Origin: a virus
Length of the DNA stretch: 64,000 nt
Direction: 5' to 3' (one strand)
Virus record (IMG/VR): IMGVR_UViG_3300032246_001892
Span: 1-64,000 of that record
Shown here: positions 2,137-56,103 of the stretch, in pieces
Numbering within the stretch: position 1 is the first letter of the stretch
How the letters are laid out: every line of letters begins with the position of its first letter
Made by a program: the position numbers and the translations under genes
The notes under the pieces: generated by a model
Database searches by the model: none
Seen by the model: only the letters and a program-made list of their open reading frames with translations
Told to the model about the DNA's origin: nothing

Positions 2137-2304
2137 ATGACATACCCACTTAAAGTTCAAATTGCTATGGATCACTTACAAGAGTTTTCAGCTGATGTTA
2201 TTGCTTCTTTAACATTAGCCCGAGAATATGATCTTCAAAGGATTGCACATGATATTGATCTAGTGTTAAGAGAGATAGGACATATACCAAATCAAGAGGA
2301 ATAA
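2137..2304 (+). CDS. Hypothetical small protein (55 aa)
   Basis: A 55-codon gene directly after the fifth promoter copy. The product starts MTYPLKVQ and looks helical throughout. Its stop codon (2302-2304) overlaps a TAAGTA late-type element serving the next gene. Function unknown. Confidence 0.65.
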   Translation: MTYPLKVQIAMDHLQEFSADVIASLTLAREYDLQRIAHDIDLVLREIGHIPNQEE

Positions 2305-2312
2305 GTATTATT
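2302..2312 (+). promoter_or_regulatory. Late-type promoter element
   Basis: TAAGTA (2302-2307) followed by five bases and ATG 2313. Confidence 0.5.
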
Positions 2313-2516
2313 ATGAATAATGAAGCATTGCTATTTCCAGTTCATATAGCAATGCTTTTAATGGCAATAGGCTTCTTGGTATTCTTTTTTATGGCTCTTG
2401 GTGGAGTAAAGAAAGTTAGAAAGATAACAAGAAAGGCAAATAAGAGAGCTAAGAAGGCAGCAGTTTGGATAAAGAATAATGATGCTTATAAGAAGAGTTG
2501 GTTTTATCAGATATGA
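2313..2516 (+). CDS. Small single-pass membrane protein (67 aa)
   Basis: One strongly hydrophobic segment (about residues 9-30), then a very basic tail (KKVRKITRKANKRAKKA) predicted to stay in the cytoplasm. The type fits small phage inner-membrane proteins, with no specific role recognised. Its TGA overlaps the next start as ATGA. Confidence 0.65.
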   Translation: MNNEALLFPVHIAMLLMAIGFLVFFFMALGGVKKVRKITRKANKRAKKAAVWIKNNDAYKKSWFYQI

Positions 2517-2680
2517 GTGGCTTAAAGATAGCTTCAGTTTGGATTGAGGATCTAATACAATGGGTTCCAATGTCTCATATAAAGGTTATTCAATGGTATA
2601 CCCACGAAGGTAAGAGTTGTGTCCAGTTTTCTTTTGATGACAAAGTACAGGAAAGCTATGTTGAGTATAAGAATTTTTAA
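2513..2680 (+). CDS. Hypothetical small protein (55 aa)
   Basis: Starts at ATG 2513 within an ATGA overlap with the preceding stop, which suggests translational coupling. 55 residues rich in beta-forming and aromatic residues (WIEDLIQWVPMSHIKVIQWY). It converges with the metallophosphoesterase gene, overlapping by 4 bp. Function unknown. Confidence 0.6.
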   Translation: MSGLKIASVWIEDLIQWVPMSHIKVIQWYTHEGKSCVQFSFDDKVQESYVEYKNF

Positions 2681-3342
2681 ATCTCTTTTAGGGTAACCTT
2701 ACCTTCCTTGTCAATGATTAAATAATGACAAGGTGAGTCACAGAATGAACCTGTGTTGTAATAGTTCTTATTCATCTTAGTACAGAAATACTCTTCAGCA
2801 TAATGTACATGCCCACCAAAGATAGCATCATAATGAGTATTCTCAATATGCTTTAATGCTCTCATTTTTATCTTTTCCCTGACATCAAGAAATGTTTTAC
2901 TATTTCTCTTTAACCATCTTGAAACTGGTTTTGAATAAGTCTGGAAAAAATAATAGACCTTCTCAGCTAAATGGGTTATAAATGGATGACTATCAATAAA
3001 AGTATCAAAGATATCTAAATGTAAAAACAGCATATGCTTTTCATTTACTGTTAATTCATACTGATGAACAAATTCAATACCAAGAATATTAGCTAACACT
3101 TCTGAATTCTTGTCATGATTTCCAGCTATAAGGATAACCTCTTTTTTCTTTGATATCTTTCTAATAGCATCTAAAACCTTCCAATGCTTCTTTTTATATC
3201 TGTTAAAGCTTTCATTGTCCAATAAATCCCCATTAATAATGAGTTTATAAAAGTCTTCCTTTTCAAGTACTTTTAATAATGCATCAGTTATACAAACAGG
3301 ACTTCCTAAATGAATATCAGAGATAACTAGAATATTGGACAT
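2677..3342 (-). CDS. Metallophosphoesterase, LpxH-like calcineurin fold
   Basis: 221 residues with the dimetal phosphoesterase motifs in order: DIHLG (8-12), NGDLLD (about 38-43), AGNHD (73-77) and GGHVHYAE (about 176-183). The layout resembles LpxH/UDP-2,3-diacylglucosamine hydrolases and related phage enzymes. The true substrate (nucleotide, nucleic acid or lipid) cannot be read from the sequence. It is transcribed against its neighbours from a late-type element and diverges from the gene at 3391, with only 48 bp between the two starts. Confidence 0.85.
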   Translation of the reverse strand: MSNILVISDIHLGSPVCITDALLKVLEKEDFYKLIINGDLLDNESFNRYKKKHWKVLDAIRKISKKKEVILIAGNHDKNSEVLANILGIEFVHQYELTVNEKHMLFLHLDIFDTFIDSHPFITHLAEKVYYFFQTYSKPVSRWLKRNSKTFLDVREKIKMRALKHIENTHYDAIFGGHVHYAEEYFCTKMNKNYYNTGSFCDSPCHYLIIDKEGKVTLKEI

Positions 3343-3354
3343 CTATACTATTTA
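3343..3354 (-). promoter_or_regulatory. Late-type promoter element
   Basis: On the minus strand TAAATA (plus-strand 3349-3354) is followed by six bases and the ATG at 3342. Confidence 0.55.
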
Positions 3355-3355
3355 T

Positions 3356-3390
3356 TTGACTTTTCTCTCCTTTGCTCTATAATTCTGAAT
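3356..3390 (+). promoter_or_regulatory. Early-type promoter
   Basis: TTGACT (3356-3361), 16-bp pyrimidine-rich spacer, TATAAT (3378-3383), seven bases to ATG 3391. It abuts the divergent late element of the metallophosphoesterase. Confidence 0.7.
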
Positions 3391-4329
3391 ATGTTCAATA
3401 TTTTCTCAAGCTTCTCAGCACCTATTAGTCCAAAGGAAAATAATAATTTGTACCCATCTTGGTCCTGGTCAACTGTTATCAAAGATGCTGATGGTAAGGA
3501 TGTACCTGTTTCTGAGCTTATTAACAAGTACAATAGACTCAATGAATCTGCAGAGCATCTAAGAGGTGAAGCTGAGAAATTCTATGAAGAGAACAAAAAG
3601 CTCAAAGATCAACTCAACTCTATTGAAGAGGATGGTACATATGAGCACAATAATGCCATTAAGCTCAGAGAAGAGAATGCTGTATTAAAGAATAGAAACA
3701 CTGAGCTTCTTGAGAAGTATAATGGTTTTGTTACAATGGGTGGTTTAAAGTATATGGAAGCAAAGCTTCAGATTGTTCAGAATGATTATAAGAAGTGTGC
3801 AGAACAAAGAGATGAATATAAGCATCAGCTCAATGCTGCTAATAAAGAGATTGTGGTATTAAAGAAAGATATTGTTGTATTAAAGAAAGATATTGTTGTA
3901 TTAAAGAAAGATATTGTTGATTATGTCTTTGACAAGGATGAAGAGATTGAAAAAATGAAAACAGAAAAGTATTATGTCTGTAATCACTGTGGATACAAAG
4001 TAGCTCACGATACCAATTATTATGGTGGCTGTGGGTTTTGTAAAGATGGTATAATGATTGAGAAGGAAGAAACTATAGATAACCCTATGTACCCTATTCA
4101 TTGGGGCACTCTAGACCCTGATATATACGAAAAAGCTAAAAACATGAGCATTGAAGAAGCTATTAAAGATGTAGCAAAAGCAGAAGTAGAGAACGAAGAT
4201 TCTTTCGAATGTCCGTGTAATAGGTGCAAGGAACCAGAAGAAAATTTAGTAGATAGAGTATCAAAGCTTGAAAAGAAAATAGAAGAGCTTACAATCATTA
4301 AAAAGAGCAAAAAAGCAATAAGACTATAA
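3391..4329 (+). CDS. Coiled-coil zinc-ribbon protein (312 aa)
   Basis: Residues about 50-190 are a long coiled coil that includes three exact heptad units IVVLKKD encoded by a 21-bp tandem repeat. Then follow a zinc-ribbon-like segment (CNHCGYKVAH, CGFCKDG) and another Cys group (CPCNRC), ending in a Lys-rich helix. This suggests a scaffold or nucleic-acid-associated protein. No named family recognised. It is driven by its own early-type promoter. Confidence 0.75.
   Translation: MFNIFSSFSAPISPKENNNLYPSWSWSTVIKDADGKDVPVSELINKYNRLNESAEHLRGEAEKFYEENKKLKDQLNSIEEDGTYEHNNAIKLREENAVLKNRNTELLEKYNGFVTMGGLKYMEAKLQIVQNDYKKCAEQRDEYKHQLNAANKEIVVLKKDIVVLKKDIVVLKKDIVDYVFDKDEEIEKMKTEKYYVCNHCGYKVAHDTNYYGGCGFCKDGIMIEKEETIDNPMYPIHWGTLDPDIYEKAKNMSIEEAIKDVAKAEVENEDSFECPCNRCKEPEENLVDRVSKLEKKIEELTIIKKSKKAIRL
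3850..3912 (+). repeat. 21-bp tandem repeat x3 (coding heptads)
   Basis: Three consecutive 21-bp units (3850-3870, 3871-3891, 3892-3912); the second and third are identical and the first differs by one base. Each encodes one coiled-coil heptad, so unit gain or loss would keep both frame and heptad phase. Confidence 0.9.
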
Positions 4330-4332
4330 TAT

Positions 4333-4566
4333 ATGCCAAAAGGAAAACTAGAATTTAATTTACCAGAAGAGCAAGGAGACTTCGAACTCGCATCAAATGC
4401 CACAAAGTGGTATTTAGTTGCTTGGGATATGGATGAGTATCTGAGAAGTTTAACCAAGTATGCTTCAGATAATGAGACTCAAGAACGCATTGATGCCTTT
4501 CAAGAAGTAAGAGATAGGTTTTGGGAGATTATGAACGATAGAAATTTAACTTTTGACGAAAGCTAA
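4333..4566 (+). CDS. Conserved phage protein of unknown function (77 aa)
   Basis: Short protein with the pattern FNLPEEQGDFELA...VAWDMDEYLRSLTKY...FQEVRDRFWEIM. I recognise this as a small protein family found in many unrelated phages (acidic N-terminus, then a WDMDxYLR helix). No function is established that I know of. Confidence 0.75.
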   Translation: MPKGKLEFNLPEEQGDFELASNATKWYLVAWDMDEYLRSLTKYASDNETQERIDAFQEVRDRFWEIMNDRNLTFDES

Positions 4567-4570
4567 TAAA

Positions 4571-4882
4571 ATGACAAAGGAACTATTTGAAGAGATTATT
4601 CTTAACATCCAGCTTTTGTCTGAAAAGAATAGACAGATATATGAACTTGGAATTGATTTAATGGAATATATAGAACCATATGAAAAGATTAATGATCTTC
4701 TGTTTAAGTCACACTTTAATGACGAACAGATTGAATGGATTGATTGGTATCTATATGAGAGACCATCACTGACTAGAAACGGAAAACCAAACCAGGCTTG
4801 GAGTACTGTTGATGGGCAGAAGGTAGAAATTTGCCACACCATCGATTCTCTTTGGGAAACTATACAAGAGTATAATAAATAG
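4571..4882 (+). CDS. Hypothetical protein (103 aa)
   Basis: Acidic, helical, Trp- and Tyr-rich C-terminal half. A longer frame begins with TTG at 4553 inside the preceding gene, but the ATG at 4571 is the simpler start. No recognised motif. It sits between two small conserved genes in one plus-strand unit. Confidence 0.6.
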   Translation: MTKELFEEIILNIQLLSEKNRQIYELGIDLMEYIEPYEKINDLLFKSHFNDEQIEWIDWYLYERPSLTRNGKPNQAWSTVDGQKVEICHTIDSLWETIQEYNK

Positions 4883-6274: not shown

Positions 6275-6285
6275 TAAATAGGAAT
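6275..6285 (+). promoter_or_regulatory. Late-type promoter element for lysis cassette
   Basis: TAAATA (6275-6280), five bases, ATG 6286. Confidence 0.55.
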
Positions 6286-6864
6286 ATGAAAAAACTTATT
6301 TTAATCATCCTGACATTGGGATGCATTGTGGGGTGTACATACTATACAGAAAAACAATCAGAAACATTGAGTCGTAATGTATATGCAACATCAGATTCTT
6401 TAAACACAGCACGCGTTGATCTGGCCAATTACTATTCTGAACAAACAACACGTTTGGTTAAATCTCCTAAAAAAAGAATTAGCATTCACGCTGTTTATGA
6501 AGCAGGCAAAGTAGCAGCGGAAAATTCAAAGACAAGAGTTATCGTTGTACCAGAAGCATATAGGAATGATAAAGTTGTAGTTGTAAATTCATCAGAATAT
6601 CAAGAGCTTCTTAAAGACAAAGCAATTGCCGAACAGTTAAAGAAAGATAATGAAAACATTATTAAATCAAAGATTGAAACAGATAAGGAATTAGCAAAAC
6701 AAGCGGAATATAATAATAAGATGATAATAGATCTTAATAACATGCAGAAAAAATTGGTAGAAAAGGATTTAGCTATTCTTTGGAGAAACATTATTATTGT
6801 AGGTTTACTCGTTTCTATCGGTGGATACATATATTTGAGAATGAATAGTTTCTTAGTTTTTTGA
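6286..6864 (+). CDS. Probable unimolecular spanin (lipoprotein plus C-terminal TM)
   Basis: 192 residues. The N-terminus is a lipoprotein signal with lipobox IVGC (Cys17). A periplasm-length region with a coiled coil (about 110-160) follows, then a hydrophobic C-terminal segment (about 168-185). A protein anchored by lipid in the outer membrane and by a TM helix in the inner membrane is the architecture of T1-type unimolecular spanins, which fuse the two membranes at lysis. The neighbouring holin-like and lysozyme genes support this. It implies a Gram-negative host. An ordinary two-anchor lipoprotein is the alternative. Confidence 0.65.
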   Translation: MKKLILIILTLGCIVGCTYYTEKQSETLSRNVYATSDSLNTARVDLANYYSEQTTRLVKSPKKRISIHAVYEAGKVAAENSKTRVIVVPEAYRNDKVVVVNSSEYQELLKDKAIAEQLKKDNENIIKSKIETDKELAKQAEYNNKMIIDLNNMQKKLVEKDLAILWRNIIIVGLLVSIGGYIYLRMNSFLVF

Positions 6865-6886: not shown

Positions 6887-6897
6887 TAAGTATTAAT
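6887..6897 (+). promoter_or_regulatory. Late-type promoter element
   Basis: TAAGTA (6887-6892), five bases, ATG 6898. Confidence 0.55.
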
Positions 6898-7042: not shown

Positions 7043-7150
7043 ATGTATTTTAAAAAACATTCATACTACCGTTCTGCCTTTTGGTGTACATATAGTTTGC
7101 TTTTAGGTTTTGTTGTTGCGAGAGGTATTTTATTTCATTTATATAGGTAA
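7043..7150 (+). CDS. Very small membrane protein (35 aa)
   Basis: 35 codons from ATG 7043; basic N-terminus (MYFKKHSYYR) followed by one hydrophobic segment. Its stop overlaps the late element of the next gene. Small size makes it tentative, but its position in the lysis cassette and positive-inside pattern fit a real gene. Confidence 0.4.
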   Translation: MYFKKHSYYRSAFWCTYSLLLGFVVARGILFHLYR

Positions 7151-7160
7151 GTAGTTATAT
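7148..7160 (+). promoter_or_regulatory. Late-type promoter element
   Basis: TAAGTA (7148-7153), seven bases, ATG 7161. Confidence 0.5.
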
Positions 7161-8182: not shown

Positions 8183-8183
8183 T

Positions 8184-9199: not shown

Positions 9200-9211
9200 T
9201 AAATAGGTCAT
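9200..9211 (+). promoter_or_regulatory. Late-type promoter element
   Basis: TAAATA (9200-9205), six bases, ATG 9212. Confidence 0.5.
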
Positions 9212-9585: not shown

Positions 9586-9621
9586 TTGACTTAACCTAAT
9601 AATATATCATATATTAATTAT
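9586..9621 (+). promoter_or_regulatory. Early-type promoter
   Basis: TTGACT (9586-9591), 18-bp spacer, TATATT (9610-9615), six bases to ATG 9622. Confidence 0.65.
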
Positions 9622-10017
9622 ATGATTCACGTAGCATTAGCTAATATTGAAAGTCAAGTAATCAAAGGAATGGTTCTTGAGGCTCCTGTTAATTCTATTG
9701 CCTATAACGATTTAGATATTCCAGTTTTAATTCAAGAAGGAGCCATATTCAAAGTTACTCATAATAACAGAGTTGGAGTCAATAGATATCGCATTAATCT
9801 GCAGGATATTAAGACTGGCGAGAAGCGTTATCAGATGAATTATGGTATTGGTAAGAATAATAAAGGCAATCCAGTTTGGTCTCGTAGGAAGGATCTAGAG
9901 AATCCAGAAGATATTCCTCTTTGCTATTCTTTGAAAACAAAAAATCCTCTTTTTAGAAAAGTTCCCGGAGAAAAAAGATATATCTTTACTAAATTAGATA
10001 CACCTATAAGATTTTAA
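9622..10017 (+). CDS. Hypothetical protein (131 aa)
   Basis: 131 residues, predicted mixed beta/alpha, basic C-terminal half (SRRKDLENPEDIP; KVPGEKRYIFTKLD). No family recognised. It has its own early-type promoter and ends two bases before the first tRNA. Confidence 0.6.
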   Translation: MIHVALANIESQVIKGMVLEAPVNSIAYNDLDIPVLIQEGAIFKVTHNNRVGVNRYRINLQDIKTGEKRYQMNYGIGKNNKGNPVWSRRKDLENPEDIPLCYSLKTKNPLFRKVPGEKRYIFTKLDTPIRF

Positions 10018-10018
10018 T

Positions 10019-10092
10019 GCCTGGTTAGTTTAATGGTAAAACGGTTGATTTGTAATCATCAAACAAGAGTTCGATTCTCTTACTAGGCTCCA
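10019..10092 (+). tRNA. tRNA-Thr(UGU), CCA encoded
   Basis: Acceptor GCCTGGT/ACTAGGC (7 pairs, one G-T), anticodon loop TTTGTAA with anticodon TGT, canonical T-loop TTCGATT, discriminator T and encoded CCA. It directly precedes an HNH endonuclease gene that ends at an orphan tRNA 3' half. Confidence 0.9.
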
Positions 10093-10118
10093 TTTTATAA
10101 AAATAGTCACCGATAGGA

Positions 10119-10130
10119 TAAATATGATAT
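10119..10130 (+). promoter_or_regulatory. Late-type promoter element
   Basis: TAAATA (10119-10124), six bases, ATG 10131. Confidence 0.55.
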
Positions 10131-10580
10131 ATGAGTCCTACAGGCCTTAATATAACACAATATATTAATTTACGTAAAATAACTGGCAATGTTACATCTA
10201 CTTGTTGTTGTGGGAAACCCTTTACAAGGCAAAAACATAGAGCTGGTAAATACTGCAGTTTACAATGTTTAGCTGAAGCAAAAAAGCAAAAAGTTGGGGA
10301 ACAAAATATATCTTTGTTCAAAGAAGGTAAATTAACACATAGAAAAATTATAAAAAGAGTTATGCTAGCTATGGGAGTTGAACACAAATGTCAAATATGT
10401 GGACTAACTGAATGGTTAGATAAACCTATTTCAATGGTATTAGATCATATTAATGGTCGAGCGGATAATAATAGACCAGAAAATCTGCGACTTATTTGTC
10501 ATAATTGTGATTCTCAAACAGAACATTATAAAGGACGCAACAAAGGTAGAGGACGTAAATCATTGGGTTTAATTAAATAA
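10131..10580 (+). CDS. HNH homing-type endonuclease
   Basis: 149 residues. N-terminal zinc-like fingers (CCCGKPFTRQKHRAGKYC) are followed by CQICGLTEW, LDHINGRADNNRPENLRLICHNC, the HNH core with metal-coordinating Cys pairs. Free-standing HNH enzymes of this type are common mobile genes in T4-like phages. It sits between an intact tRNA-Thr and an orphan tRNA 3' half, consistent with insertion at a tRNA locus. Own late-type element upstream. Confidence 0.85.
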   Translation: MSPTGLNITQYINLRKITGNVTSTCCCGKPFTRQKHRAGKYCSLQCLAEAKKQKVGEQNISLFKEGKLTHRKIIKRVMLAMGVEHKCQICGLTEWLDKPISMVLDHINGRADNNRPENLRLICHNCDSQTEHYKGRNKGRGRKSLGLIK

Positions 10581-11225: not shown

Positions 11226-11238
11226 TAAGTATATGTAT
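11226..11238 (+). promoter_or_regulatory. Late-type promoter element
   Basis: TAAGTA (11226-11231), seven bases, ATG 11239. Confidence 0.5.
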
Positions 11239-11853
11239 ATGAATAATTTTTACTATCTATACAAAATAACCAATTTAATTAATAAAAAATATTATATAGG
11301 TGTCCATAGTACTAATAATTTAGATGATGGGTATATGGGATCTGGAAAATTGATATTAAAAGCTATAAAAAAATATGGAAACAAAAATTTTAAAAAAGAA
11401 ATATTAGAGTGGTTTAATACAGAAGAAGAAATGTACAAAAAAGAAATTGAAATTGTTAATGAAGAATTCGTAAATGATAAAACAAACTACAATGTCAAGC
11501 TTGGCGGGCCAGCTAATTTTTATTATATAAATAAAAACAAATTAAACCATAAAAAAAATCAACACTTAATACATGCTAACAAATTAAAATCTGATCCAGA
11601 ATATAGAAAAAGATTTGTTGAAAAAATGAAAAATGCCTTATCAAAGGAAAAGCGATTAGAGTATAGCAAAAGGATGAAAGAGAATAATTGTAATAGAAAT
11701 AGATTTTGGATATCAAACGATTTTTATAAAAAATCTAAAATGGTAACACAAGAACAGTTTGATGTTCTGTTAAATCAAAATTGGTATAAGGGTGTAAAAT
11801 ATAGAAAGAATAGATCGGTTCAAATCCAGTCCGGCGCTCCATATATGGGGTAA
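11239..11853 (+). CDS. GIY-YIG homing-type endonuclease
   Basis: 204 residues from ATG 11239. The GIY-YIG core is at the N-terminus: FYYLYKITNLINKKYYIGVH, then an AIKKYGNKNFKKEILEWF helix typical of the domain. A basic DNA-binding region follows. The frame stays open upstream to 11065 through tRNA genes, which I reject as fortuitous. The last codons (about NRSVQIQSGAPYMG) read through an orphan tRNA 3' half, suggesting the gene inserted at a tRNA. Mobile endonucleases of this type are frequent in T4-like phages. Confidence 0.85.
   Translation: MNNFYYLYKITNLINKKYYIGVHSTNNLDDGYMGSGKLILKAIKKYGNKNFKKEILEWFNTEEEMYKKEIEIVNEEFVNDKTNYNVKLGGPANFYYINKNKLNHKKNQHLIHANKLKSDPEYRKRFVEKMKNALSKEKRLEYSKRMKENNCNRNRFWISNDFYKKSKMVTQEQFDVLLNQNWYKGVKYRKNRSVQIQSGAPYMG
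11813..11841 (+). pseudogene. Orphan tRNA 3' half with CCA
   Basis: T-loop TTCAAAT (11819-11825) flanked by a weak T-stem, acceptor strand CCGGCGC (11831-11837), T discriminator and CCA. The required 5' strand GCGCCGG is not found nearby. It overlaps the 3' end of the GIY-YIG coding region. Confidence 0.55.
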
Positions 11854-11861
11854 GTATTAAT
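11851..11861 (+). promoter_or_regulatory. Late-type promoter element
   Basis: TAAGTA (11851-11856), five bases, ATG 11862. Confidence 0.55.
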
Positions 11862-12215
11862 ATGTTTACAAGAATTAAAGACGCTCTTCAAGGCAAAGCT
11901 CCTATAACAGCTTCACGTTCCCCTAAATGGGCTGGTGTGAGAGAAAGTCATTTAAAACAACATCCTACTTGTGCAGTATGTGAAGGAAACGAAAATCTTA
12001 ATGTTCATCATATTAAACCCTTTCACTTACATCCAGAATTAGAATTAGAACCCACTAATCTTGTAACTCTTTGTGAATGTGAAAAACATGGTGTAAATTG
12101 CCATTTGCTTATAGGTCATATAGGTAATTTTCACAATATTAATCCTCATGTATTAGAAGATATTCCAATTTGGAACGAGAGATTAAAAGAAAAAAACGAT
12201 AACCCAGACGTATAG
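11862..12215 (+). CDS. HNH endonuclease
   Basis: 117 residues. SPKWAGVRESHLKQHPTCAV then CEGNENLNVHHIKPFH, LEPTNLVTLCE and CHLLIGHIGNF: a compact HNH nuclease with paired Cys ligands. This short version is widespread in phages, sometimes with a packaging or DNA-processing role rather than homing, so a mobile nature is not certain. It lies between tRNA genes and has its own late-type element. Confidence 0.82.
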   Translation: MFTRIKDALQGKAPITASRSPKWAGVRESHLKQHPTCAVCEGNENLNVHHIKPFHLHPELELEPTNLVTLCECEKHGVNCHLLIGHIGNFHNINPHVLEDIPIWNERLKEKNDNPDV

Positions 12216-14082: not shown

Positions 14083-14093
14083 TAAGTAATTAC
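14083..14093 (+). promoter_or_regulatory. Late-type promoter element
   Basis: TAAGTA (14083-14088), five bases, ATG 14094. It decides between two in-frame starts. Confidence 0.5.
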
Positions 14094-17594: not shown

Positions 17595-17606
17595 TAAATA
17601 AAAATC
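17595..17606 (+). promoter_or_regulatory. Late-type promoter element
   Basis: TAAATA (17595-17600), six bases, ATG 17607. Confidence 0.55.
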
Positions 17607-22787: not shown

Positions 22788-22798
22788 ATTTATACTTA
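22788..22798 (-). promoter_or_regulatory. Late-type promoter element
   Basis: Minus-strand TAAGTA (22798-22793), five bases, ATG at 22787. Confidence 0.55.
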
Positions 22799-23791: not shown

Positions 23792-23840
23792 ATATTTGTC
23801 TTCTATTTAGTAATAGATTATCTTTATTTTAAGATAATAA

Positions 23841-24266
23841 TCACTTAATTTTTGAGTTATTTTTTTTATTCGATAACTTTTTGATTCTCAAAGGTTTACG
23901 TTTTTTGTATTTGGATTTTTTTTCTATTTTCTCTAAAAAATTTCTTTGTATCTCAGATTTATAAATTTTAGATGATATATGTTTTAAAAATGCTGCATTT
24001 TCTAATTGAGATACTCCGTTAATAACTCTTTTTTCCGTATAGAGTACTTGAGTTTCACTCCATTCCGGAAACAAATAATGAATACACTCATGATAAGCTG
24101 TAGCTAAAAATTCACCACTAGGATTGAATACTAGGTCAGTCCAATTACATATTCCGTGTGTACCCCTCATTTTTCTCAACGAGAAAAATTCTGCCGGTTT
24201 ACGTTTAACCAAATTTAAACATCTTTTATATATAATTGATATTTCTGTTTTGGTTATCTTTTTCAT
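23841..24266 (-). CDS. Small HExxH protein with basic tail
   Basis: 141 residues. ATAYHECIHYLFPEWSETQV contains HECIH (HExxH) with a nearby Glu, followed by a very basic C-terminus (KKSKYKKRKPLRIKKLSNKK). The pattern suggests a compact zinc metallopeptidase-like domain with DNA affinity, loosely like SprT-type proteins. It is the second HExxH protein in the window. Confidence 0.65.
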   Translation of the reverse strand: MKKITKTEISIIYKRCLNLVKRKPAEFFSLRKMRGTHGICNWTDLVFNPSGEFLATAYHECIHYLFPEWSETQVLYTEKRVINGVSQLENAAFLKHISSKIYKSEIQRNFLEKIEKKSKYKKRKPLRIKKLSNKKNNSKIK

Positions 24267-24277
24267 TCCAATACTTA
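24267..24277 (-). promoter_or_regulatory. Late-type promoter element
   Basis: Minus-strand TAAGTA (24277-24272), five bases, ATG at 24266. Confidence 0.5.
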
Positions 24278-24307
24278 GATTATAGAAGCCTTTTAAATCA
24301 TTTCAAG

Positions 24308-24344
24308 TTGATAGTTATCTGTATTGCTCTATATTGATAGAAGT
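24308..24344 (+). promoter_or_regulatory. Early-type promoter
   Basis: TTGATA (24308-24313), 16-bp spacer, TATATT (24330-24335), nine bases to ATG 24345. It supports ATG over the in-frame TTG at 24324. Confidence 0.55.
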
Positions 24345-25556
24345 ATGTTTAATCTAAACAGTAAAAACGTAATAAAATTGTCTAAAGATAAAGGTGAACT
24401 TTATTATAACCTTGTCAATGACAATGAATTTCCTATAAGGAGATACATTGAAAACACCTATGGGGTAGCTCCTAGTTTCTGTTATCCAGATGAAGAATTC
24501 ACAGGTGATATATTAACCTTTTTATTAAAAAACGGAAAATTGATGAACTTTACATCAACTGGTAAAATAGAATTATTAGAAAAGGATAATATTAAAGGAT
24601 TGAGAGGAGGCACTTTTTGGATTGCTTATAAAAAGGTCTATGTAAGATTAACAGTTAAAAATCAAACAGATGAAAAAGAACATCTTACAATTTCAGCAGG
24701 ATTCAGTCATGCATTGGAATGGTCGGAAAACGAAAAGGATAAAGAATACTCACCAGCTCAGATTTTTAGTTTAGGTTTTATATTTCCATCCAATGTTATG
24801 GATGTTCCTTTTAACGATTTTATTGAATTTATTCATAAACCAACAAAAGGCCGAGTTCATCTTTTTATTAAGAATCAATACGGTGAATATGATTTTGAAC
24901 CCATTTCTGTAGATATACCAGATAATGTTGATCTGTCTTTAAATTACGGAAAGGATTTTGTTGAAATAGATAAAACTATTAAAGAAAGACTTTCTGAAAA
25001 ATCCAGTGGTTTGTATATGTTTCATGGACCTCCCGGAACAGGTAAAACTACCTATATCAAGTATTTAGCAGGACAGATTGATAGAGATTTTATCTATATT
25101 CCTACAAGCATGTTAGAATTCTTTACTTCAGATCCTAACAGTTTATCAGTTCTTTTACAAAAACCAAATTCAGTTCTTATATTAGAAGATGCCGAGAAAG
25201 CTATCATAAAAAGAGAAGACAATGGAATGGCATCATCGGTATCATCTCTTTTAAATCTGTCTGATGGTATCATGAGTGATATTTTAAAAACAGCTGTTGT
25301 CTTGACTTATAATTGTTCAAGACAAGAAGTAGATGAGGCTTTAAGAAGGAAAGGAAGACTCCGTGTTGATTATGAATTTGATCTTTTAAAAGTGAGTGAT
25401 GCTAAAACATTAGCAAAGTCCTTGAATTATTCCGATAAACTAATAGAATCAGAAATTAAAGAAAAAATGTCTATTGCTGATGTTTACAATTTAAAAGATA
25501 AAGTTAATTTTTACGAAGAACCCTCAGAAGAAGAAACGCGTATTGGATTTAGATAA
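24345..25556 (+). CDS. AAA+ ATPase (BCS1-like)
   Basis: 403 residues. The N-terminal 220 residues are unrecognised. Then follow Walker A FHGPPGTGKTT, Walker B VLILEDAEKA, a sensor-1-like VLTYNCS and an Arg-finger region EALRRKGRLRVDY, as in BCS1/FtsH-like AAA domains. It shares a TAATG overlap with a RecB-like nuclease gene, so the two products may act together on DNA or protein remodelling. It is not an obvious clamp loader, and no gp44/gp62 pair is in this window. Confidence 0.8.
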   Translation: MFNLNSKNVIKLSKDKGELYYNLVNDNEFPIRRYIENTYGVAPSFCYPDEEFTGDILTFLLKNGKLMNFTSTGKIELLEKDNIKGLRGGTFWIAYKKVYVRLTVKNQTDEKEHLTISAGFSHALEWSENEKDKEYSPAQIFSLGFIFPSNVMDVPFNDFIEFIHKPTKGRVHLFIKNQYGEYDFEPISVDIPDNVDLSLNYGKDFVEIDKTIKERLSEKSSGLYMFHGPPGTGKTTYIKYLAGQIDRDFIYIPTSMLEFFTSDPNSLSVLLQKPNSVLILEDAEKAIIKREDNGMASSVSSLLNLSDGIMSDILKTAVVLTYNCSRQEVDEALRRKGRLRVDYEFDLLKVSDAKTLAKSLNYSDKLIESEIKEKMSIADVYNLKDKVNFYEEPSEEETRIGFR

Positions 25557-26386: not shown

Positions 26387-26404
26387 TAAATATATTCACA
26401 TTAT
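26387..26404 (+). promoter_or_regulatory. Late-type promoter element
   Basis: TAAATA (26387-26392) followed by twelve bases and ATG 26405; a slightly longer leader than at most late genes. Confidence 0.45.
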
Positions 26405-27210: not shown

Positions 27211-27223
27211 TAAGTATCTTTAC
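27211..27223 (+). promoter_or_regulatory. Late-type promoter element
   Basis: TAAGTA (27211-27216), seven bases, ATG 27224. Confidence 0.5.
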
Positions 27224-29634: not shown

Positions 29635-29645
29635 ATTAGATATAT

Positions 29646-30479
29646 TTACTTAGTTTCGCTTGGTTTCCAAGTGTTTTGATCATGTTTATGTTGGTCTTGG
29701 ATATATAATTCTTTAAACTTGTGTGTAATGAACTTACAAAGTTCTGAACGAACAATATCTTCTTCGCCTAATTCCATACAGAATATACCTTGAGCCTTTG
29801 CTTCATCATTATTAAAAAGATTGTACACCTTATCAAAACCAGACTTTCCAAAAGGAAGATCACTTTGTTCAGGGTCACCACAAAGGAATACTTTAGAAAA
29901 TTCTCCAATACGACTCATAATAGTATGAATCTCTCTTTTGGAGAAATTTTGAATTTCATCTGCACATACAAACTTTGCAGAGAAGTGGAGACCTCTTGCG
30001 AAGTTGATAGGACAAATAGTTAATCTGTTATCCTTCTCTAATCTGTCAAGAGTGGGTTTTGATAACAACTCTGAAAATTTATCATGGAAGGGGGTGAGAT
30101 ATACACCAAACTTTTCTGCTATGTCACCTGACAGGAATCCTAGTTTTGAATCTGAAGATTCAACTGCTGATCTAACCAATACTAAATCAGAAATTCTTCT
30201 CATATTGAGAAGTGTTAATCCACAATACATTGCTAAGGTAGTTTTAGAGGTTCCTGCCGGACCCTTTAAAAACAATACTTTAGTGCCTTTGTCCAAAAAC
30301 AGTTTAATGATTTGTTTTTGTTTATCTGTCCAAGGTAAATCCTTAACAGATAAATCAAAGGATATTTTATCCCTTTGAAAAACATAAGGTGAATTGTCTT
30401 CCGACTTTTTAGGGTCAGAAATATTGTTAGTGGAAACAAGTGGTTTCACTTGTTTTTTAACGCGGGGTTTTTTTCCCAT
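29646..30479 (-). CDS. phoH: PhoH-like ATPase
   Basis: 277 residues. Walker A LKGPAGTSKTT, KFVCADEIQNFSKREIHTIM (Walker B) and FLCGDPEQSDLP are the signature of PhoH-family P-loop ATPases, found in many marine phages. A Lys/Arg-rich N-terminus precedes the domain. Its exact role in infection (RNA metabolism or stress response) is not established. Confidence 0.88.
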   Translation of the reverse strand: MGKKPRVKKQVKPLVSTNNISDPKKSEDNSPYVFQRDKISFDLSVKDLPWTDKQKQIIKLFLDKGTKVLFLKGPAGTSKTTLAMYCGLTLLNMRRISDLVLVRSAVESSDSKLGFLSGDIAEKFGVYLTPFHDKFSELLSKPTLDRLEKDNRLTICPINFARGLHFSAKFVCADEIQNFSKREIHTIMSRIGEFSKVFLCGDPEQSDLPFGKSGFDKVYNLFNNDEAKAQGIFCMELGEEDIVRSELCKFITHKFKELYIQDQHKHDQNTWKPSETK

Positions 30480-30896: not shown

Positions 30897-30960
30897 CACT
30901 ATTATTTACTATAATTCTTGTGTTTTTCAAAAAAAATATTAAAACGTGCCAAACAAAGGA

Positions 30961-30981
30961 TAAATAATCACATAAAATTAT
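30961..30981 (+). promoter_or_regulatory. Late-type promoter of tail sheath
   Basis: TAAATA (30961-30966) followed by fifteen bases to ATG 30982. On the other strand a TAAATA (30908-30903) serves the divergent gene. Confidence 0.5.
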
Positions 30982-33194: not shown

Positions 33195-33206
33195 TAAATA
33201 TAGTAT
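33195..33206 (+). promoter_or_regulatory. Late-type promoter of tail tube
   Basis: TAAATA (33195-33200), six bases, ATG 33207. Confidence 0.6.
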
Positions 33207-33772: not shown

Positions 33773-33784
33773 TAAATATTCTAT
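33773..33784 (+). promoter_or_regulatory. Late-type promoter element
   Basis: TAAATA (33773-33778), six bases, ATG 33785. Confidence 0.6.
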
Positions 33785-36340: not shown

Positions 36341-36352
36341 TAAGTATTCTAT
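36341..36352 (+). promoter_or_regulatory. Late-type promoter element
   Basis: TAAGTA (36341-36346), six bases, ATG 36353. Confidence 0.6.
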
Positions 36353-40256: not shown

Positions 40257-40272
40257 TAAATATTTATTAATA
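40257..40272. promoter_or_regulatory. Palindromic late-type element, divergent
   Basis: TAAATATTTA (40257-40266) reads TAAATA on both strands: four bases from the minus-strand GTG 40256 (seven from GTG 40253) and ten bases from the terminase ATG at 40273. Confidence 0.5.
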
Positions 40273-46602: not shown

Positions 46603-47691
46603 ATGGAACCAATACACGGTATACATTTGGGGATGGTTGTAAGTGATGTAGCAGATCCAGAAGGAAGAAATAGAGTACAGGTTTATGTTCCTTATTTGAG
46701 TAATACTTTATATACTGGTGTAAATCAAGAATTGAAAGATATGTCTTTCAAGAGTCCAGCAGATCTTAAAAAATTTGGTCTCTGGGATAAACTTAAAAAA
46801 ATACTCCCTTGGGCAGAAGCTGCAGCCCCTTGTTTTGGTGGTTCGAGTGGTATGTTTAATTCTTCGACTGGTGCTGGAGCAGTTAATAGCGGATCTACGT
46901 TTAATGATGGTGGTAATGATGTTGACGTCACTAAAGAATTTCCTAGTAGTACTGCTAATATGGATCCATTAGGAAATACACAAACAGAATCAAAAAATGA
47001 ATATTTTAGCAGTTCTTTTATAAATTTTGTAAAGGCTAAGGAAGGTTTTAGTGCTAAAGCTTATGGAGATAATACTCAAACTTCAATAGGTTATGGTACA
47101 AGAGCTACGAGCCCCAATGAAGTTATAACAGAATCTGAAGCCGAAGCAAGGTTGGTCGCAGAATTATCTCAATCAGCATCAGAAACTGATCGAAGATTAT
47201 CTTCAAAGAATATACAATTAAACCAATATCAAAAAGAAGCTTTATATTCTTATACCTATAATAGAGGAGCTGGTGGATTAGATCAACTTTTGAATAATTC
47301 TGGATCATCATGGGAGAGTATTTCTGCTAATATGCCTGTGTATTGGGGGAGTTATACACCTGCTCAGAGCGGATTAATAAATCGTAGAAATGACGAAGTT
47401 CAATATGCCAATAGTGGTGGCACATCTTTTAGTTCGCCAACCCAAACATCTTCAACCAAATTAGTAAGAATAGCAGATCGCTCTGCCGCTGATATTCAGG
47501 CTACTAATATAGGTACTCCTGGATCACCTTCTGGAGTATTTTCAACACCGTTACCTGGAGATAAAGTGTGGGTATTTTTCTTGGGCGGAGATATTCAAAG
47601 ACCAGTTTACTTTGCTAAAGCAATTGAACCTGCTGATGCTTATGCTATGGCGGGTGAACCTCCTACTGGTGTTAACACCACTATTGCCTAA
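46603..47691 (+). CDS. Baseplate hub with tail lysozyme (gp5-like)
   Basis: 362 residues. The N-terminal OB fold (GIHLGMVVSDVADPEGRNRV) is interrupted by a T4-lysozyme-like domain (about 140-265): KAKEGFSAKAYGDNTQTSIG keeps the catalytic Glu and Asp spacing, with Ser in the place of the catalytic Thr. The OB region resumes as GDKVWVFFLGGDIQRPVYFA. It would dissolve peptidoglycan locally during injection. Unlike T4 gp5, no beta-helix follows in the same gene. Confidence 0.82.
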   Translation: MEPIHGIHLGMVVSDVADPEGRNRVQVYVPYLSNTLYTGVNQELKDMSFKSPADLKKFGLWDKLKKILPWAEAAAPCFGGSSGMFNSSTGAGAVNSGSTFNDGGNDVDVTKEFPSSTANMDPLGNTQTESKNEYFSSSFINFVKAKEGFSAKAYGDNTQTSIGYGTRATSPNEVITESEAEARLVAELSQSASETDRRLSSKNIQLNQYQKEALYSYTYNRGAGGLDQLLNNSGSSWESISANMPVYWGSYTPAQSGLINRRNDEVQYANSGGTSFSSPTQTSSTKLVRIADRSAADIQATNIGTPGSPSGVFSTPLPGDKVWVFFLGGDIQRPVYFAKAIEPADAYAMAGEPPTGVNTTIA

Positions 47692-51183: not shown

Positions 51184-51195
51184 ATATTTTATTTA
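51184..51195 (-). promoter_or_regulatory. Late-type promoter element
   Basis: Minus-strand TAAATA (51195-51190), six bases, ATG at 51183. Confidence 0.55.
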
Positions 51196-51206: not shown

Positions 51207-51962
51207 TTATTTTACTAGAGCTGAAACAATATATTTCAACTCAACTTCATCATCTTCTTTATTTTGAAAGATGAAAACTTTATACTGATTATTAATTTTT
51301 ACTTTAATATCAGTTTTGCACGAAGCAAGATTTTTAAAGATCTCTACGTTTACAGGAAGAGCTTCTGAGATATCTGAACCAATAAATGAATCTGATATAA
51401 CTAACGTCATATTATCAACATTCTGTAATGTTCGGTCATTGATCTCTGCATATACCTTTCCTTCTTTGGTAAAGAAGTAGATCTTAGTAAGATCTGAAGC
51501 AAACGCATAACCTGCCATGATCTGTTTGATTTTACTTGTGCTTAAAACAAATTCTGTATCAAACTTAATCTGTGAAAATTTATTAAGATTTACAGGTGTT
51601 TCTCTAATAACACTGTCATCAACTAAATGGTATTTGAAGAAAGTCTTTTCATTATCTGGAGACTTAACTTCACACTTAATACTATTGATATTGTACTCTA
51701 TAGAGAACTCTCCATCATCTCCTAGACATTCCAGTCCAGATAGTAATTTCTTTATACTAATGAGATTTAGTCTTACTGCTTCATTCAAAGTGAATGGAAG
51801 CGTAGTTTTAGCGTAAAGAATCACGGTATTATCCGGAGACGAACAGACAGAATACAAATCATTCTTGTCTGCTTTTAACACACAACTCTCAGTAAGCCTA
51901 TTTACAGGCTTGAGTAACTTCTCTAAGAAGCTCTTAGGAAGCGGTATATGAATGGCTGACAC
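51207..51962 (-). CDS. DNA polymerase sliding clamp (gp45-like)
   Basis: 251 residues. IPLPKSFLEKLLKPVNRLTE and VKINNQYKVFIFQNKEDDEV frame two-domain clamp topology; size is close to T4 gp45 (228). The clamp tethers the polymerase and, in T4, activates late promoters together with gp33 and gp55. The start is GTG (51960-51962). Its presence agrees with the late-promoter pattern seen across the window. Confidence 0.8.
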   Translation of the reverse strand: MSAIHIPLPKSFLEKLLKPVNRLTESCVLKADKNDLYSVCSSPDNTVILYAKTTLPFTLNEAVRLNLISIKKLLSGLECLGDDGEFSIEYNINSIKCEVKSPDNEKTFFKYHLVDDSVIRETPVNLNKFSQIKFDTEFVLSTSKIKQIMAGYAFASDLTKIYFFTKEGKVYAEINDRTLQNVDNMTLVISDSFIGSDISEALPVNVEIFKNLASCKTDIKVKINNQYKVFIFQNKEDDEVELKYIVSALVK

Positions 51963-52461: not shown

Positions 52462-52465
52462 ATTT

Positions 52466-53311
52466 TTACCTCAGGTCTCTACCTGCGTTGATTACACTGA
52501 CTGCAATAGAGGAATGGATACTCTCGAAGTGATTAACAATTACGAGGTAATCATTAATACGACCATCAAGATCAGTATCTAACTCTACTGCAACCTTACG
52601 GACCATATCTTCGACGAAGACTGGATTCTCATACATAAGCTCTGTCTGATAAGCCTCATCAACACGCTTAAGGGCGTTAACGATAGGTGCTGAGCAACTA
52701 CGCTCAACTGCACCAATAAGCTCCTCAAACCAATATACATCCTTACCGTCAACACCTGTGTGGTTGAGTTCAACGGTAACGTCTGCATAAGACTGCTGAT
52801 TATGAGCTCCATAATCACTGATCTCCTTAGAGCAGGGGCAGAGGGAAGCGTAAAGAACATTAGCGTGGAGATAGAACTTCTTCTCTCCGTTAATGAGTCT
52901 ACCCTCAAATGAACCTTGATAATCCATATGAGACTTGACCTTAGAGACTGGTGCCTCCTTGATCATGAAGTAATCAAACTTGATCTTAATGTAAGCGTTC
53001 TGAGACTTCAGACGATTCTTACACTCATCAAGGAGAAGATCCATAACCTGATCAATACGATGGGTCTTGTTAGCAAGAACCTCTTCAACCAGGATACGAT
53101 AGCGACTCATGTTTGTACCCTTAACCTCTGGAGTGAGATCGGTATACATACTAATGATTGCTTTAGTAGGGTTAATGGTTCCATCTTGTCTAATAATTTC
53201 CATAGGAACTACGATATTCCTAGAACCAACTTTAGGAATATACTTCTTAGGGAAACCATCCAGCGTATTTTGAATGTCTGGAATGTCGTCGTTTGTTTTT
53301 ACTCTTGGCAT
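52466..53311 (-). CDS. folE2: GTP cyclohydrolase IB (FolE2)
   Basis: 281 residues from the ATG giving MPRVKTNDDIPDIQN. SLCPCSKEISDYGAHNQQSY is the FolE2 signature with the metal-binding Cys; VPMEIIRQDG and EVLANKTHRIDQVMDLLLDE agree. The family turns GTP into dihydroneopterin triphosphate, first step for folate and for 7-deazaguanines. G+C content (roughly 35-47% in sampled lines) exceeds that of neighbours, like virion genes, suggesting strong expression. Starts in an AAC/AAA-rich leader similar to that of the gp32-like gene upstream. Confidence 0.9.
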   Translation of the reverse strand: MPRVKTNDDIPDIQNTLDGFPKKYIPKVGSRNIVVPMEIIRQDGTINPTKAIISMYTDLTPEVKGTNMSRYRILVEEVLANKTHRIDQVMDLLLDECKNRLKSQNAYIKIKFDYFMIKEAPVSKVKSHMDYQGSFEGRLINGEKKFYLHANVLYASLCPCSKEISDYGAHNQQSYADVTVELNHTGVDGKDVYWFEELIGAVERSCSAPIVNALKRVDEAYQTELMYENPVFVEDMVRKVAVELDTDLDGRINDYLVIVNHFESIHSSIAVSVINAGRDLR

Positions 53312-53339
53312 ATATTTGTTTGTTTGTTGTTTAATTGAA

Positions 53340-54206
53340 TTAAAGATCCTTGAGAATATCTTGGATACGGTCATTTTGATCTGAAAGAACATCGTTATTA
53401 TCATCTACAACTGTAGAAGATGCAACCGACTTTGTTGTAGTAGGAACAATATATTCCTCTTCAACTTCTAATACAGAAGCTACAGAAGCTGCTGGTGCTT
53501 CTTCCTCACCAAGGAAGTGAACCTTAAGCATCTTGTTAATGTCTTCTGTAGTCTTATGCTCAAAGATAGAATCAAGAGGCTTGAAAGACTTATAAATCTC
53601 TTCAAGATCCGTTGCACCTTCAAGAGGAGAAGCAGAAATGAACTTGGAAGAAACATATGTAGGATATCCACCCTCATTTGCCTCTACCTTGATACGGAGA
53701 TTACAACCCTTCTCTGAGAGATCAAAGATCCTAGATCCGAATTCATCTGCATCATCACCGCTAATAGCATCTGTAATGACTTTATTAAGCTGCTTACCAA
53801 AACGAAGAATCTTGGTCTGACCCTGATTGTCAGGGTTAGTTGGATCCTTAATAACGTAAACATTGGCTAACCAATTTTCATTACGCTTGATTGGAGCAAT
53901 GCGCTTAATCTCACCCTCATTATTGGTACGATAAATCTTGGAGCGATACTCATCAATAGGGCAACGTTCGCCATATGTCGTAGGACACAAGACTGAAACA
54001 AGTTGATTAGTGACAACACTCTTCCAGAGATGATGGAAGTAGTGAAAGAGCGTACGCTCTGGTGCTTCAATGTTAGGAATCAGGCGTACCAAATAGGTAT
54101 TACCAATCTCCAGTTTCATAAAGTCTCTGAATCCGCTCTCTGCGGTAGAAGACTTCTTATTAAGAGCCTCTTTAATAGACTCGAATAGGTTGTTGTTGTA
54201 TTTCAT
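53340..54206 (-). CDS. Single-stranded DNA-binding protein (gp32-like)
   Basis: 288 residues. FHYFHHLWKSVVTNQLVSVL followed by CPTTYGERCPIDEYR is the zinc-containing core of gp32-type SSBs. The acidic C-terminus (VDDNNDVLSDQNDRIQDILK) would contact replication partners. The leader is A/C-rich and unstructured (ACAAACAACATATG before the ATG), a context in which T4 gp32 represses its own translation; similar control here is inference. Confidence 0.88.
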   Translation of the reverse strand: MKYNNNLFESIKEALNKKSSTAESGFRDFMKLEIGNTYLVRLIPNIEAPERTLFHYFHHLWKSVVTNQLVSVLCPTTYGERCPIDEYRSKIYRTNNEGEIKRIAPIKRNENWLANVYVIKDPTNPDNQGQTKILRFGKQLNKVITDAISGDDADEFGSRIFDLSEKGCNLRIKVEANEGGYPTYVSSKFISASPLEGATDLEEIYKSFKPLDSIFEHKTTEDINKMLKVHFLGEEEAPAASVASVLEVEEEYIVPTTTKSVASSTVVDDNNDVLSDQNDRIQDILKDL

Positions 54207-54243
54207 ATGTTGTTTGTTTTGTTTTTGTTTGTTTAATATTATA

Positions 54244-54900
54244 TTAAGATGAAACCCTTTTCAACTCTTCTATAATAAAATTCTTAATTTTGTTTGTAGC
54301 CTCTTTAGTAAAGGCTTTTGTTTTTGGTGAATTGTGATATCTGGTTTTGTAAGCATTTAAATTATCTGTTAAATTAGGAGCCCATAAAGCCTGTTCATCT
54401 TCGCTTAAATTATAAACACTAGATAGATCACCAAGCTCCATTATACTATAAGGACTTATATTATGCTCCCTATAATGTTGAGTCCAAGCTGGCATTCTAC
54501 CAATTTTAAAATTTAAGTATTGATTCAGAGTTATTTTATTCCTGAGACAGAAAAGAGCAACGAAGCGTAAACTATCTTTAATCTTGTCTAATTGTTTATC
54601 CGGAGACTGACTCTCTAATTGTTGTTGATAGAGGCTATAAGTTCTAATTGCTGCACGAGTGATGAAAAATTTAAGTGGAGGGCACTTTTCATCTGGGTGT
54701 AATCCACGAGGAGCACCGAAGAATTCATCCCATTTAATATGAGAAAATTTAGCAAAGAAATTACTCAGTCTCTTGAGCAAGACTACATTTTCAGGAGTAA
54801 TATCTGAAAAATCTTTTCTAGGTTGATAAGGCAACCCATTACGGAAATGTTTAAGAAAGCAATTATATATATCTTGCTCTACTTTATTCAATTGATTCAA
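54244..54900 (-). CDS. Helicase-loader candidate (gp59 position)
   Basis: 218 residues, nearly all helical, basic; almost the same length as T4 gp59 (217). It lies between a small gene and the gp32-like gene in the order small gene, this gene, gp32, as in T4 33-59-32, and overlaps the upstream gene by 17 bp. Sequence similarity to gp59 is not evident by eye, so the name is a synteny-based inference. Confidence 0.5.
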   Translation of the reverse strand: MNQLNKVEQDIYNCFLKHFRNGLPYQPRKDFSDITPENVVLLKRLSNFFAKFSHIKWDEFFGAPRGLHPDEKCPPLKFFITRAAIRTYSLYQQQLESQSPDKQLDKIKDSLRFVALFCLRNKITLNQYLNFKIGRMPAWTQHYREHNISPYSIMELGDLSSVYNLSEDEQALWAPNLTDNLNAYKTRYHNSPKTKAFTKEATNKIKNFIIEELKRVSS

Positions 54901-55204
54901 TTTGTTTGGATTTTGGCTTGTTTAGTTTTGATCGGAAAATCTTTTTATAAATATTAGGAGTACTTCCTAAATAGGCACGCATAATATTTTGTAAACTATA
55001 GTCTCCGAGTATTTCAAAATATAATTTTTGCGTTCTTTTGTCTTCTATAAGGAATTTAAGAAAATTTAAATAATTGAATTTCTTGCCTCGTGCAATGCAT
55101 ACGAAAGAAGCAAACTTCATAGTAATGTCTTCAAATTCTGAAAGATCAAATACATCTGAAGGGTTTACATTTTCGTCTATCTGTTGTGAAGATGTGATAA
55201 TCAT
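54884..55204 (-). CDS. Small protein at gp33 position (106 aa)
   Basis: 106 residues: acidic N-terminus, a helical middle (ITMKFASFVCIARGKKFNYL), a Lys-rich end. In T4 the late co-activator gp33 (112 aa) occupies this place before gp59. The C-terminus lacks the LDFLL-type clamp-binding tail of T4 gp33, which weakens the match. It overlaps the DHH gene stop (ATGA). Confidence 0.45.
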   Translation of the reverse strand: MIITSSQQIDENVNPSDVFDLSEFEDITMKFASFVCIARGKKFNYLNFLKFLIEDKRTQKLYFEILGDYSLQNIMRAYLGSTPNIYKKIFRSKLNKPKSKQIESIE

Positions 55205-56091
55205 AGTGGTTTTAAATTCTTAGTAACTTCCATAAAGAGAGGTGTTATTTTACCTCCAGCGGCATATTCATGGCCACCACCTTCACATAATCTTTCTGCA
55301 AAAGCCCCTACATCAATAGGGTCGGTTTTAGTACATTGTCTTATAGATACCTTTTCGTTTTTGGTATTTATAAAAAAGAAAATATCTGGTGCATATTTTT
55401 GAATTAGAATATCCATTACCTGTGGTACTATTCTTTCAACCATACCTGCATATACTTTCTTCTGCTTTCCTCCTATGGTAAGTTCTCCATAAAAAAGAGG
55501 TATTTTTTCAGCTTCTATTGAAGCTTCTCTCTTTATAAAATCTATGGCTCTCCTTTGTTCAGGAGTTATTTTTTTAAATCCTTTACTATAATCTTTAATA
55601 AATTCTGAGAACTTATTACGATATTGAGACCAAAATAAAATGTTTAAATCGTAAGAATCTGGAATTTGTAATTTATAAGAATCAAAATCATCAGCCAAGG
55701 CTATTAACATTTTTTGTTCTTGTGTTAATTCTGGAGAGGAGTCAGCAAATAATTTCCTTACTAAAAGAGAATTTGAAGAATATTCCTTACACAACACTTT
55801 AGATTTATTAAATCTATTAACAAAATTTAATGATGTTTTGTGATGATCTATAATAGTAATATTACTTTCATTTAAAAAAGGTAAAAATTCTTCTCTTAAA
55901 GCAATATCTAAAACAAAGGTAGTTGGCTTATTATGAGTATTAGAAATATTATCTCTAATTTTATCTACTACTTCTAAATTATTGACCGGAAAATAATGGA
56001 AAGTATCATCAGGTCTTGACCACATTAATGTCAAAAGGCTTACAGCTCCATCTAAATCATTATGAGTAAATACGTGATAGCATTTTGACAT
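55201..56091 (-). CDS. DHH-family phosphoesterase
   Basis: 296 residues. THNDLDGAVS, FVLDIALREEF, ITIIDHHKTS and the C-terminal DHHA1 GGGHEYAAGGKI motifs. Such proteins are oligonucleotide/pAp phosphatases or RecJ-like exonucleases. The short length fits NrnA-like nanoRNases. It might clear short RNA or cyclic oligonucleotide signals, but this is speculative. A late-type element precedes it. Confidence 0.85.
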   Translation of the reverse strand: MSKCYHVFTHNDLDGAVSLLTLMWSRPDDTFHYFPVNNLEVVDKIRDNISNTHNKPTTFVLDIALREEFLPFLNESNITIIDHHKTSLNFVNRFNKSKVLCKEYSSNSLLVRKLFADSSPELTQEQKMLIALADDFDSYKLQIPDSYDLNILFWSQYRNKFSEFIKDYSKGFKKITPEQRRAIDFIKREASIEAEKIPLFYGELTIGGKQKKVYAGMVERIVPQVMDILIQKYAPDIFFFINTKNEKVSIRQCTKTDPIDVGAFAERLCEGGGHEYAAGGKITPLFMEVTKNLKPL

Positions 56092-56103
56092 ATCTACTAT
56101 TTA
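56092..56103 (-). promoter_or_regulatory. Late-type promoter element
   Basis: Minus-strand TAAATA (56103-56098), six bases, ATG at 56091. Confidence 0.55.

Follow-up and report, generated by a model that had tools for sequence, protein, structure and literature searches.

Where would the late messengers of a T4-type phage begin if the core of its putative late promoters lay practically against the start codons? The question is raised by the IMG/VR virus record IMGVR_UViG_3300032246_001892 (91,286 bases; AT content, 67%), in which the hexamers TAAATA and TAAGTA, hereafter TAARTA, recur a few nucleotides (nt) upstream of genes on both strands. We analyzed bases 1–64,000 of that record, referred to below as the window, along with the remaining 27 kb. 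The answer that we favor, with a probability of about 0.86, is that TAARTA marks T4-type late promoters—served by the sigma factor gp55 and presumably by gp33 and the sliding clamp—which promoters would be fused to the start codons and give rise to leaderless or nearly leaderless mRNAs, the early sigma70 promoters being laid out in like manner. Genes were called without regard to the motif, by codon score and start-codon preference, which procedure gave 123 genes for the whole record; all the starts mentioned are predicted starts, and the gap is the number of nt between the motif and the start codon.

Position and conservation of TAARTA

A sequence-only reading of the window had listed 21 TAAATA or TAAGTA sites located 5–7 nt before start codons, and all 21 were present with that spacing; the genome-wide positional bias of the motif, which had been set beforehand as the check, was likewise found in the motif-blind gene set. 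When all hexamers situated 4–8 nt before the motif-blind starts were compared, the top two were TAAATA (15 genes; 0.33 expected) and TAAGTA (11 genes; 0 expected). TAARTA at a gap of 5–8 preceded 23 of 120 genes (binomial P ~3e-31), whereas ten control windows taken farther upstream gave 0–2 genes each, and shuffling the 30 bases upstream of each gene produced the motif in 2.2 genes on average and in no more than 7 in any of 1000 shuffles. The motif was also oriented, there being 33 sense and 4 antisense copies within 20 nt upstream of starts; 14 of the 27 TAAGTA copies in the record sit 5–15 nt before a start, and the start codon at the 26 tight motif sites was ATG in 25 and GTG in the other.

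Searches with the tail tube and the sheath yielded 28 related loci in IMG/VR, where TAARTA recurs at the equivalent place, the tail tube and neighboring genes carrying the motif. Among the orthologous starts, 69 of 88 had the motif 3–18 nt upstream in the instance of motif genes vs. 7 of 112 for non-motif genes, which conservation extends down to 30–43% protein identity. In a 177-kb relative, analyzed in pieces, the top hexamers were again TAAATA (19 vs. 0.67 expected) and TAAGTA (13 vs. 0.33). The contigs G013, G014, and G022 have a proximal box and no Shine–Dalgarno (SD) site; G024 and G026 have proximal boxes plus SD sites at other genes. The finding is real and had been mostly read correctly, the arrangement being maintained across a varied set of uncultured phages.

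The putative late promoters of the window lie on the plus strand unless marked (-). At gap 5 they are TAAGTA at 2302–2307 (ATG 2313), 6887–6892 (ATG 6898), 11851–11856 (ATG 11862), 14083–14088 (ATG 14094), 22793–22798(-) (ATG 22787(-)), and 24272–24277(-) (ATG 24266(-); motif kept in four relatives), together with TAAATA at 6275–6280 (ATG 6286), for which the orthologue has TAAGTA, also at gap 5. At gap 6 there are TAAATA boxes at 3349–3354(-) (ATG 3342(-)), 9200–9205 (ATG 9212), 10119–10124 (ATG 10131), 30903–30908(-) (ATG 30896(-); kept in both gene-bearing relatives), 33195–33200 (ATG 33207, tail tube; in 15 of 15 relatives compared), 33773–33778 (ATG 33785; in 14 of 14 relatives compared, at gaps 5–7), 51190–51195(-) (ATG 51183(-); identical gap in the relative G001), and 56098–56103(-) (ATG 56091(-), DHH phosphoesterase); a TAAGTA box at 36341–36346 (ATG 36353; gaps 6–7 in 5 of 6 relatives compared); and a TAAATA at 17595–17600 (ATG 17607), to which no equivalent was seen at the relative's locus. 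Gap 7 is represented by TAAATA at 4876–4881 (ATG 4889) and by TAAGTA at 7148–7153 (ATG 7161; kept in G001 at gap 8), 11226–11231 (ATG 11239), and 27211–27216 (ATG 27224), and gap 8 by TAAATA at 29643–29648(-) (ATG 29634(-); kept in nearly all gene-bearing relatives). Longer gaps occur at three further TAAATA boxes: 12 at 23804–23809(-), before the small subunit of ribonucleotide reductase (RNR; ATG 23791(-); identical gap in G001), 12 at 26387–26392 (ATG 26405; 12–14 in relatives), and 15 at 30961–30966, before the tail sheath (ATG 30982), where nearly all relatives have gaps of 11–15 and one has 7.

Two of the starts in the sequence-only reading look better than those chosen by the motif-blind caller: 6286, because TAAGTATTATT-ATG stands at the orthologous start of the 177-kb relative as well, and 11239, because the alternative at 11233 would fall upstream of the transcription start (+1). 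The gene at 6286 encodes a small protein with a lipoprotein-like N-terminus and adjoins an endolysin-like gene. We set aside the gap-4 sites at 46603 and 47699, which are probably due to chance—the TAA at 47699 being the stop codon of the upstream gene—along with a gap-18 site at 39497 that is without conservation in relatives.

Apparent free-standing homing-endonuclease genes, several of them among tRNA genes, each have their own TAARTA box. In the window these genes start at 10131, 11862, and 14094 (HNH-like), 11239 (GIY-YIG-like), and 22787(-), and others at 1657 and 4720 of L001; the assignment comes from a family match (phrog_314) for 22787(-) and from inspection of the sequence for the rest. 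The gene at 11862 is preceded by a sequence resembling a tRNA 3' end. Elsewhere, between the divergent genes 40273(+) and 40253(-), the sequence TAAATATTTA at 40257–40266 is its own reverse complement and could constitute a single late box for both directions.

Late machinery and predicted start of transcription

A homologue of the late sigma factor gp55 is encoded at 82448–83158(-) of the record, outside the window (phrog_234, E = 7.6e-27); the family profile matches the T4 gp55 chain 7d7c_F (E = 3.8e-20), and a search of 11 records turned up gp55 in 9 and missed it in two fragments, of 50 and 65 kb. The product of 51207–51962(-) has the fold of a gp45-type sliding clamp, its model, of moderate confidence (pLDDT 67), matching PCNA and bacterial beta clamps with E values of 1e-8 to 1e-10. 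For gp33, size and gene order point to a candidate, a helical protein of 106 aa encoded at 54884–55204(-), which gene adjoins those of a 218-aa protein about as large as gp59 and of a gp32-type single-stranded-DNA-binding protein (53340–54206(-); phrog_224), an order that we take to resemble the T4 arrangement 33-59-32. The TAARTA sites display no strong -35 conservation, but only slight A/T enrichment between about -32 and -27; position -8 of the box is A or G, and the segment downstream is rich in A/T (82–91% at positions -5 to -1). The gp55 homologue, the clamp fold, and the lack of a -35 element thus support the original claim of a T4-type late promoter, of which TAARTA would be the core: a -10-like box read by the host RNA polymerase carrying the phage gp55, with activation presumably via gp33 and the clamp.

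The T4 late box spans -13 to -6, with T at -13 (PMC2988020), so that +1 is the sixth base after the box: a gap of 5 puts +1 on the A of the ATG, and a smaller gap would leave the AUG outside the transcript. In 11 phages of the same kind, whose genomes are related and whose pooled counts are therefore not independent, the sites numbered 4, 3, 4, 6, and 4 at gaps 0–4, and 65, 54, 33, 20, and 23 at gaps 5–9, the step falling where a promoter predicts it. The base at +1 in the gap-5 sites was A in 47 of 53 instances, being by construction mostly the A of the ATG. The sequence-only reading had put +1 on that A throughout, which placement, transferred from T4, would be exact at gap 5 alone: gaps 6–9 imply a predicted leader of 1–4 nt, and the conserved gap of 11–15 at the sheath gene, an example of a minority, implies one of some 6–10 nt. 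The more general claim, that the boxes are placed for leaderless or nearly leaderless transcripts, is borne out by the step at gap 5, by the conservation in relatives, and by the contrast with T4 described below. Ribosomes would initiate on such late mRNAs at the 5' end itself or close beside it, with no SD site involved. At one locus the interval is narrowed further: 25 nt separate ATG 27224 from the end of the T-run of an intrinsic terminator, and the TAAGTA box lies in between, so that any mRNA not coming through the terminator starts within that stretch.

Several points weigh against this interpretation, in addition to the kinship of the pooled genomes. Although the TAARTA core is present, the two T4 bases T at -13 and A at -12 are not maintained (a variant at -13/-12 has been recorded in Aeh1, a relative of T4; PMC2988020); certain motif genes, such as those of the RNR small subunit and the DHH phosphoesterase, are not obviously late; no sequence or fold match was obtained for the gp33 identity of the 106-aa protein; and many gap-6 sites have T where the T4-like +1 would fall. 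The exact start at these last sites may slide by 1–2 nt, and on account of that T the safe wording is "leaderless or nearly leaderless".

Shine–Dalgarno sites and early promoters

A 5-mer SD preceded 2 of 25 motif genes (0–3 in control windows) and 9 of 95 non-motif genes (1–3 in control windows), and in the 177-kb relative 9 of 212 genes vs. 5–13 in control windows. The operon-internal genes had been thought to bear SD sites, which is correct for the four examples named (52461, 57732, 58236, and 60584) but fails for the non-motif genes as a class, at 9 in 95. Nor could we uphold the proposal of two translation modes, with leaderless first genes and SD-led internal ones, since SD sites are rare in all the gene classes and the early sigma70 promoters are start-proximal too; among other relatives, G024, G026, and the cultured Pelagibacter phage Mosig EXVC030M do appear to combine two such modes. 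Phage-encoded ribosomal protein bS21 was considered as a general cause and rejected, since searches recovered it neither from this record nor from most of the leaderless relatives that they covered; it is encoded in three of the compared phages (Mosig record 9983–10132, G014 134233–134376, and G024 182325–182483).

In the early region, consensus sigma70 promoters of the form TTGACA-N16-18-TATAAT/TAGAAT end 6–7 nt before the ATG. Those with TTGACA-N17-TAGAAT lie at 354–388 and 1267–1301, ending 6 nt before ATG 389 and ATG 1302, respectively; one with TTGACA-N17-TATAAT lies at 1000–1035 (7 nt before ATG 1036), one with TTGACA-N17-TAGAAC at 1713–1747 (6 nt before ATG 1748), and one with TTGACA-N16-TAGAAT at 2103–2136 (6 nt before ATG 2137). 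Further examples are TTGACT-N16-TATAAT at 3356–3390 (7 nt before ATG 3391), the sigma70-like TTGACT-N18-TATATT at 9586–9621 (6 nt before ATG 9622), and TTGACT-N16-TATTAT at 59432–59466(-), 7 nt before ATG 59431(-) of a UvsX-like recombinase; some of these start-proximal promoters recur in a relative, the first and the last of the three having the same layout in G001 (8083 and 63231(-)). In genes without TAARTA, -10-like hexamers peak at gaps of 6–7. The sigma70 -10 boxes being start-proximal too, the layout is not confined to late genes; the leaderless design would extend to early transcription and appears, as judged from these sequences, to cover early genes as well, so that the phage in its entirety looks designed for initiation free of SD sites.

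The early promoter is part of a repeated unit, TTGACACCTCCTCCTAAAGCATATAGAATAAGATTATG, found at 350–396, 996–1042, 1263–1309, 1709–1755, and 2094–2145, whose spacer holds CCTCCT, as in the 3' tail of the 16S rRNA, and would not be transcribed from the TTGACACCTCCTCCTAAAGCATATAGAATAAGATTATG promoter. At 24266–24306(-) a sigma70-like TTGAAA-N16-TATAAT stands directly beside the TAAGTA box, as also occurs near 27486(-) of G001, which pair fits the idea of overlapping early and late promoters for middle genes (PMC2984593). With respect to the host, bacterial and archaeal genomes were scanned twice for relatives of the sheath and the clamp without a match, and a member of the Bacteroidota, considered in view of the lack of SD sites, is argued against, we infer, by the canonical TTGACA/TATAAT early promoters.

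Two other features of the record are an 18-bp tandem repeat of at least nine copies within the first open reading frame (2–244) and a set comprising a QueD-like gene, recognized by family match, and FolE-like and QueE-like candidates, noted by inspection (57736–58236(-) and 52466–53404(-) of the window, and 3870–4634(-) of L001), which combination suggests a possible 7-deazaguanine modification of the DNA.

Alternative explanations and known systems

An unlikely alternative, though one with several points in its favor, is that TAARTA is a start-proximal -10 box for a host or other sigma factor instead of gp55, the transcripts still being leaderless or nearly so. The missing TA at -13/-12, the frequent G at -8, the replication genes among those with the motif, and the sigma70 -10 boxes in the same place would all accord with that possibility; but the recovery of gp55 from all the records searched apart from the two fragments, the resemblance of the motif, without a strong -35, to the late boxes of T4 and S-PM2, and the use of a different, canonical hexamer pair by the early promoters of the same phage speak for gp55. 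We consider it quite improbable that TAARTA, instead of a promoter, is a translation or mRNA-processing element within longer leaders: the tight position relative to the ATG and the rarity of SD sites would accord with such an element, which, however, offers no evident reason for a distribution of gaps that is cut off sharply below 5 and has a long tail above, and which is further opposed by the conserved second class at gap 11–15 of the sheath gene, by the terminator immediately upstream of the site at 27224, and by the spacing of motif genes, fewer of which have a same-strand gene no more than 15 nt upstream (6 of 23 vs. 51 of 95 other genes, p = 0.02). Chance in an AT-rich genome, together with a biased choice of start codons in the sequence-only reading, might be suspected from whole-genome counts of TAARTA-N5-7-ATG barely above a reversed-pattern control, a count uninformative in such DNA, but is already refuted by the motif-blind starts, the control windows and shuffles, the conservation at orthologous starts, and the absence of the gap 5–8 pattern in T4, S-CAM1, and C48C1.

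The late transcription of T4 is a classic of the textbooks, and the phage here, with gp55 and a clamp encoded and late structural genes among the targets, shares with the gp55/gp33/gp45-dependent promoters of T4 and with the S-PM2-type late box of cyanophages, NATAAATA, the TAAATA core and the lack of a -35 element. The differences lie in placement and sequence. Within 70–119 kb of T4 the exact TATAAATA box mostly precedes the start by 17–28 nt, an SD intervening (5-mer SD in 15 of 56 genes vs. 0.75 expected), whereas the boxes here are 5–9 nt before the ATG with no SD; and, unlike the T4 consensus TATAAATA at -13 to -6, the TA at -13/-12 is not conserved, TAAGTA being nearly as common as TAAATA. 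A -10 box fused to the start codon with little or no SD recalls the leaderless genes of Deinococcus-Thermus and Actinobacteria, where a TANNNT box lies ~10 bp upstream (PMC3160421, PMC12340547), which pattern the sigma70 promoters here fit directly; those genes use a cellular sigma, whereas here a phage late sigma would also be involved. The Thermus phage phiYS40, a member of a different phage group, has leaderless mRNAs, and changes in translation factors, as cited in PMC3594737, the former property being predicted for the present phage also. Phage Mosig, with gp55 and the clamp annotated, has 7 TAAATA boxes at gap 5, including those of the tail tube (24338–24964 of its record) and the DNA end protector (106113–106670), and also boxes at gaps of 15–28 with SD-like sites, thus representing a mixed state; late-promoter prediction in pelagimyophages had been reported as unsuccessful (PMC7029224). 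Leaderless phage mRNA and leaderless cellular genes were known already; of leaderless T4-type late promoters, by contrast, no description was found in the open-licence literature.

On balance we lean toward the broader view that SD leaders are dispensed with in translation initiation throughout a whole clade of large aquatic phages of the T4 type, whose host-sigma70 early promoters and gp55 late promoters alike would be fused to the starts and whose operon-internal genes would mostly have no SD site. T4, with late genes that have leaders and depend on SD sites, would then represent just one layout of the two that exist in gp55 phages, and Mosig, G024, and G026 would stand between. The textbook late machinery appears here to be wired to leaderless mRNA, a finding to which the parallel early promoters and a cultured phage with the same arrangement add interest. 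The rule that TAARTA lies 5–9 nt before the ATG would serve to locate late promoters and to correct start codons in uncultured T4-type phages, and it poses the question of how the hosts translate such leaderless mRNAs, for which question the cultured Mosig on Pelagibacter offers a test system.

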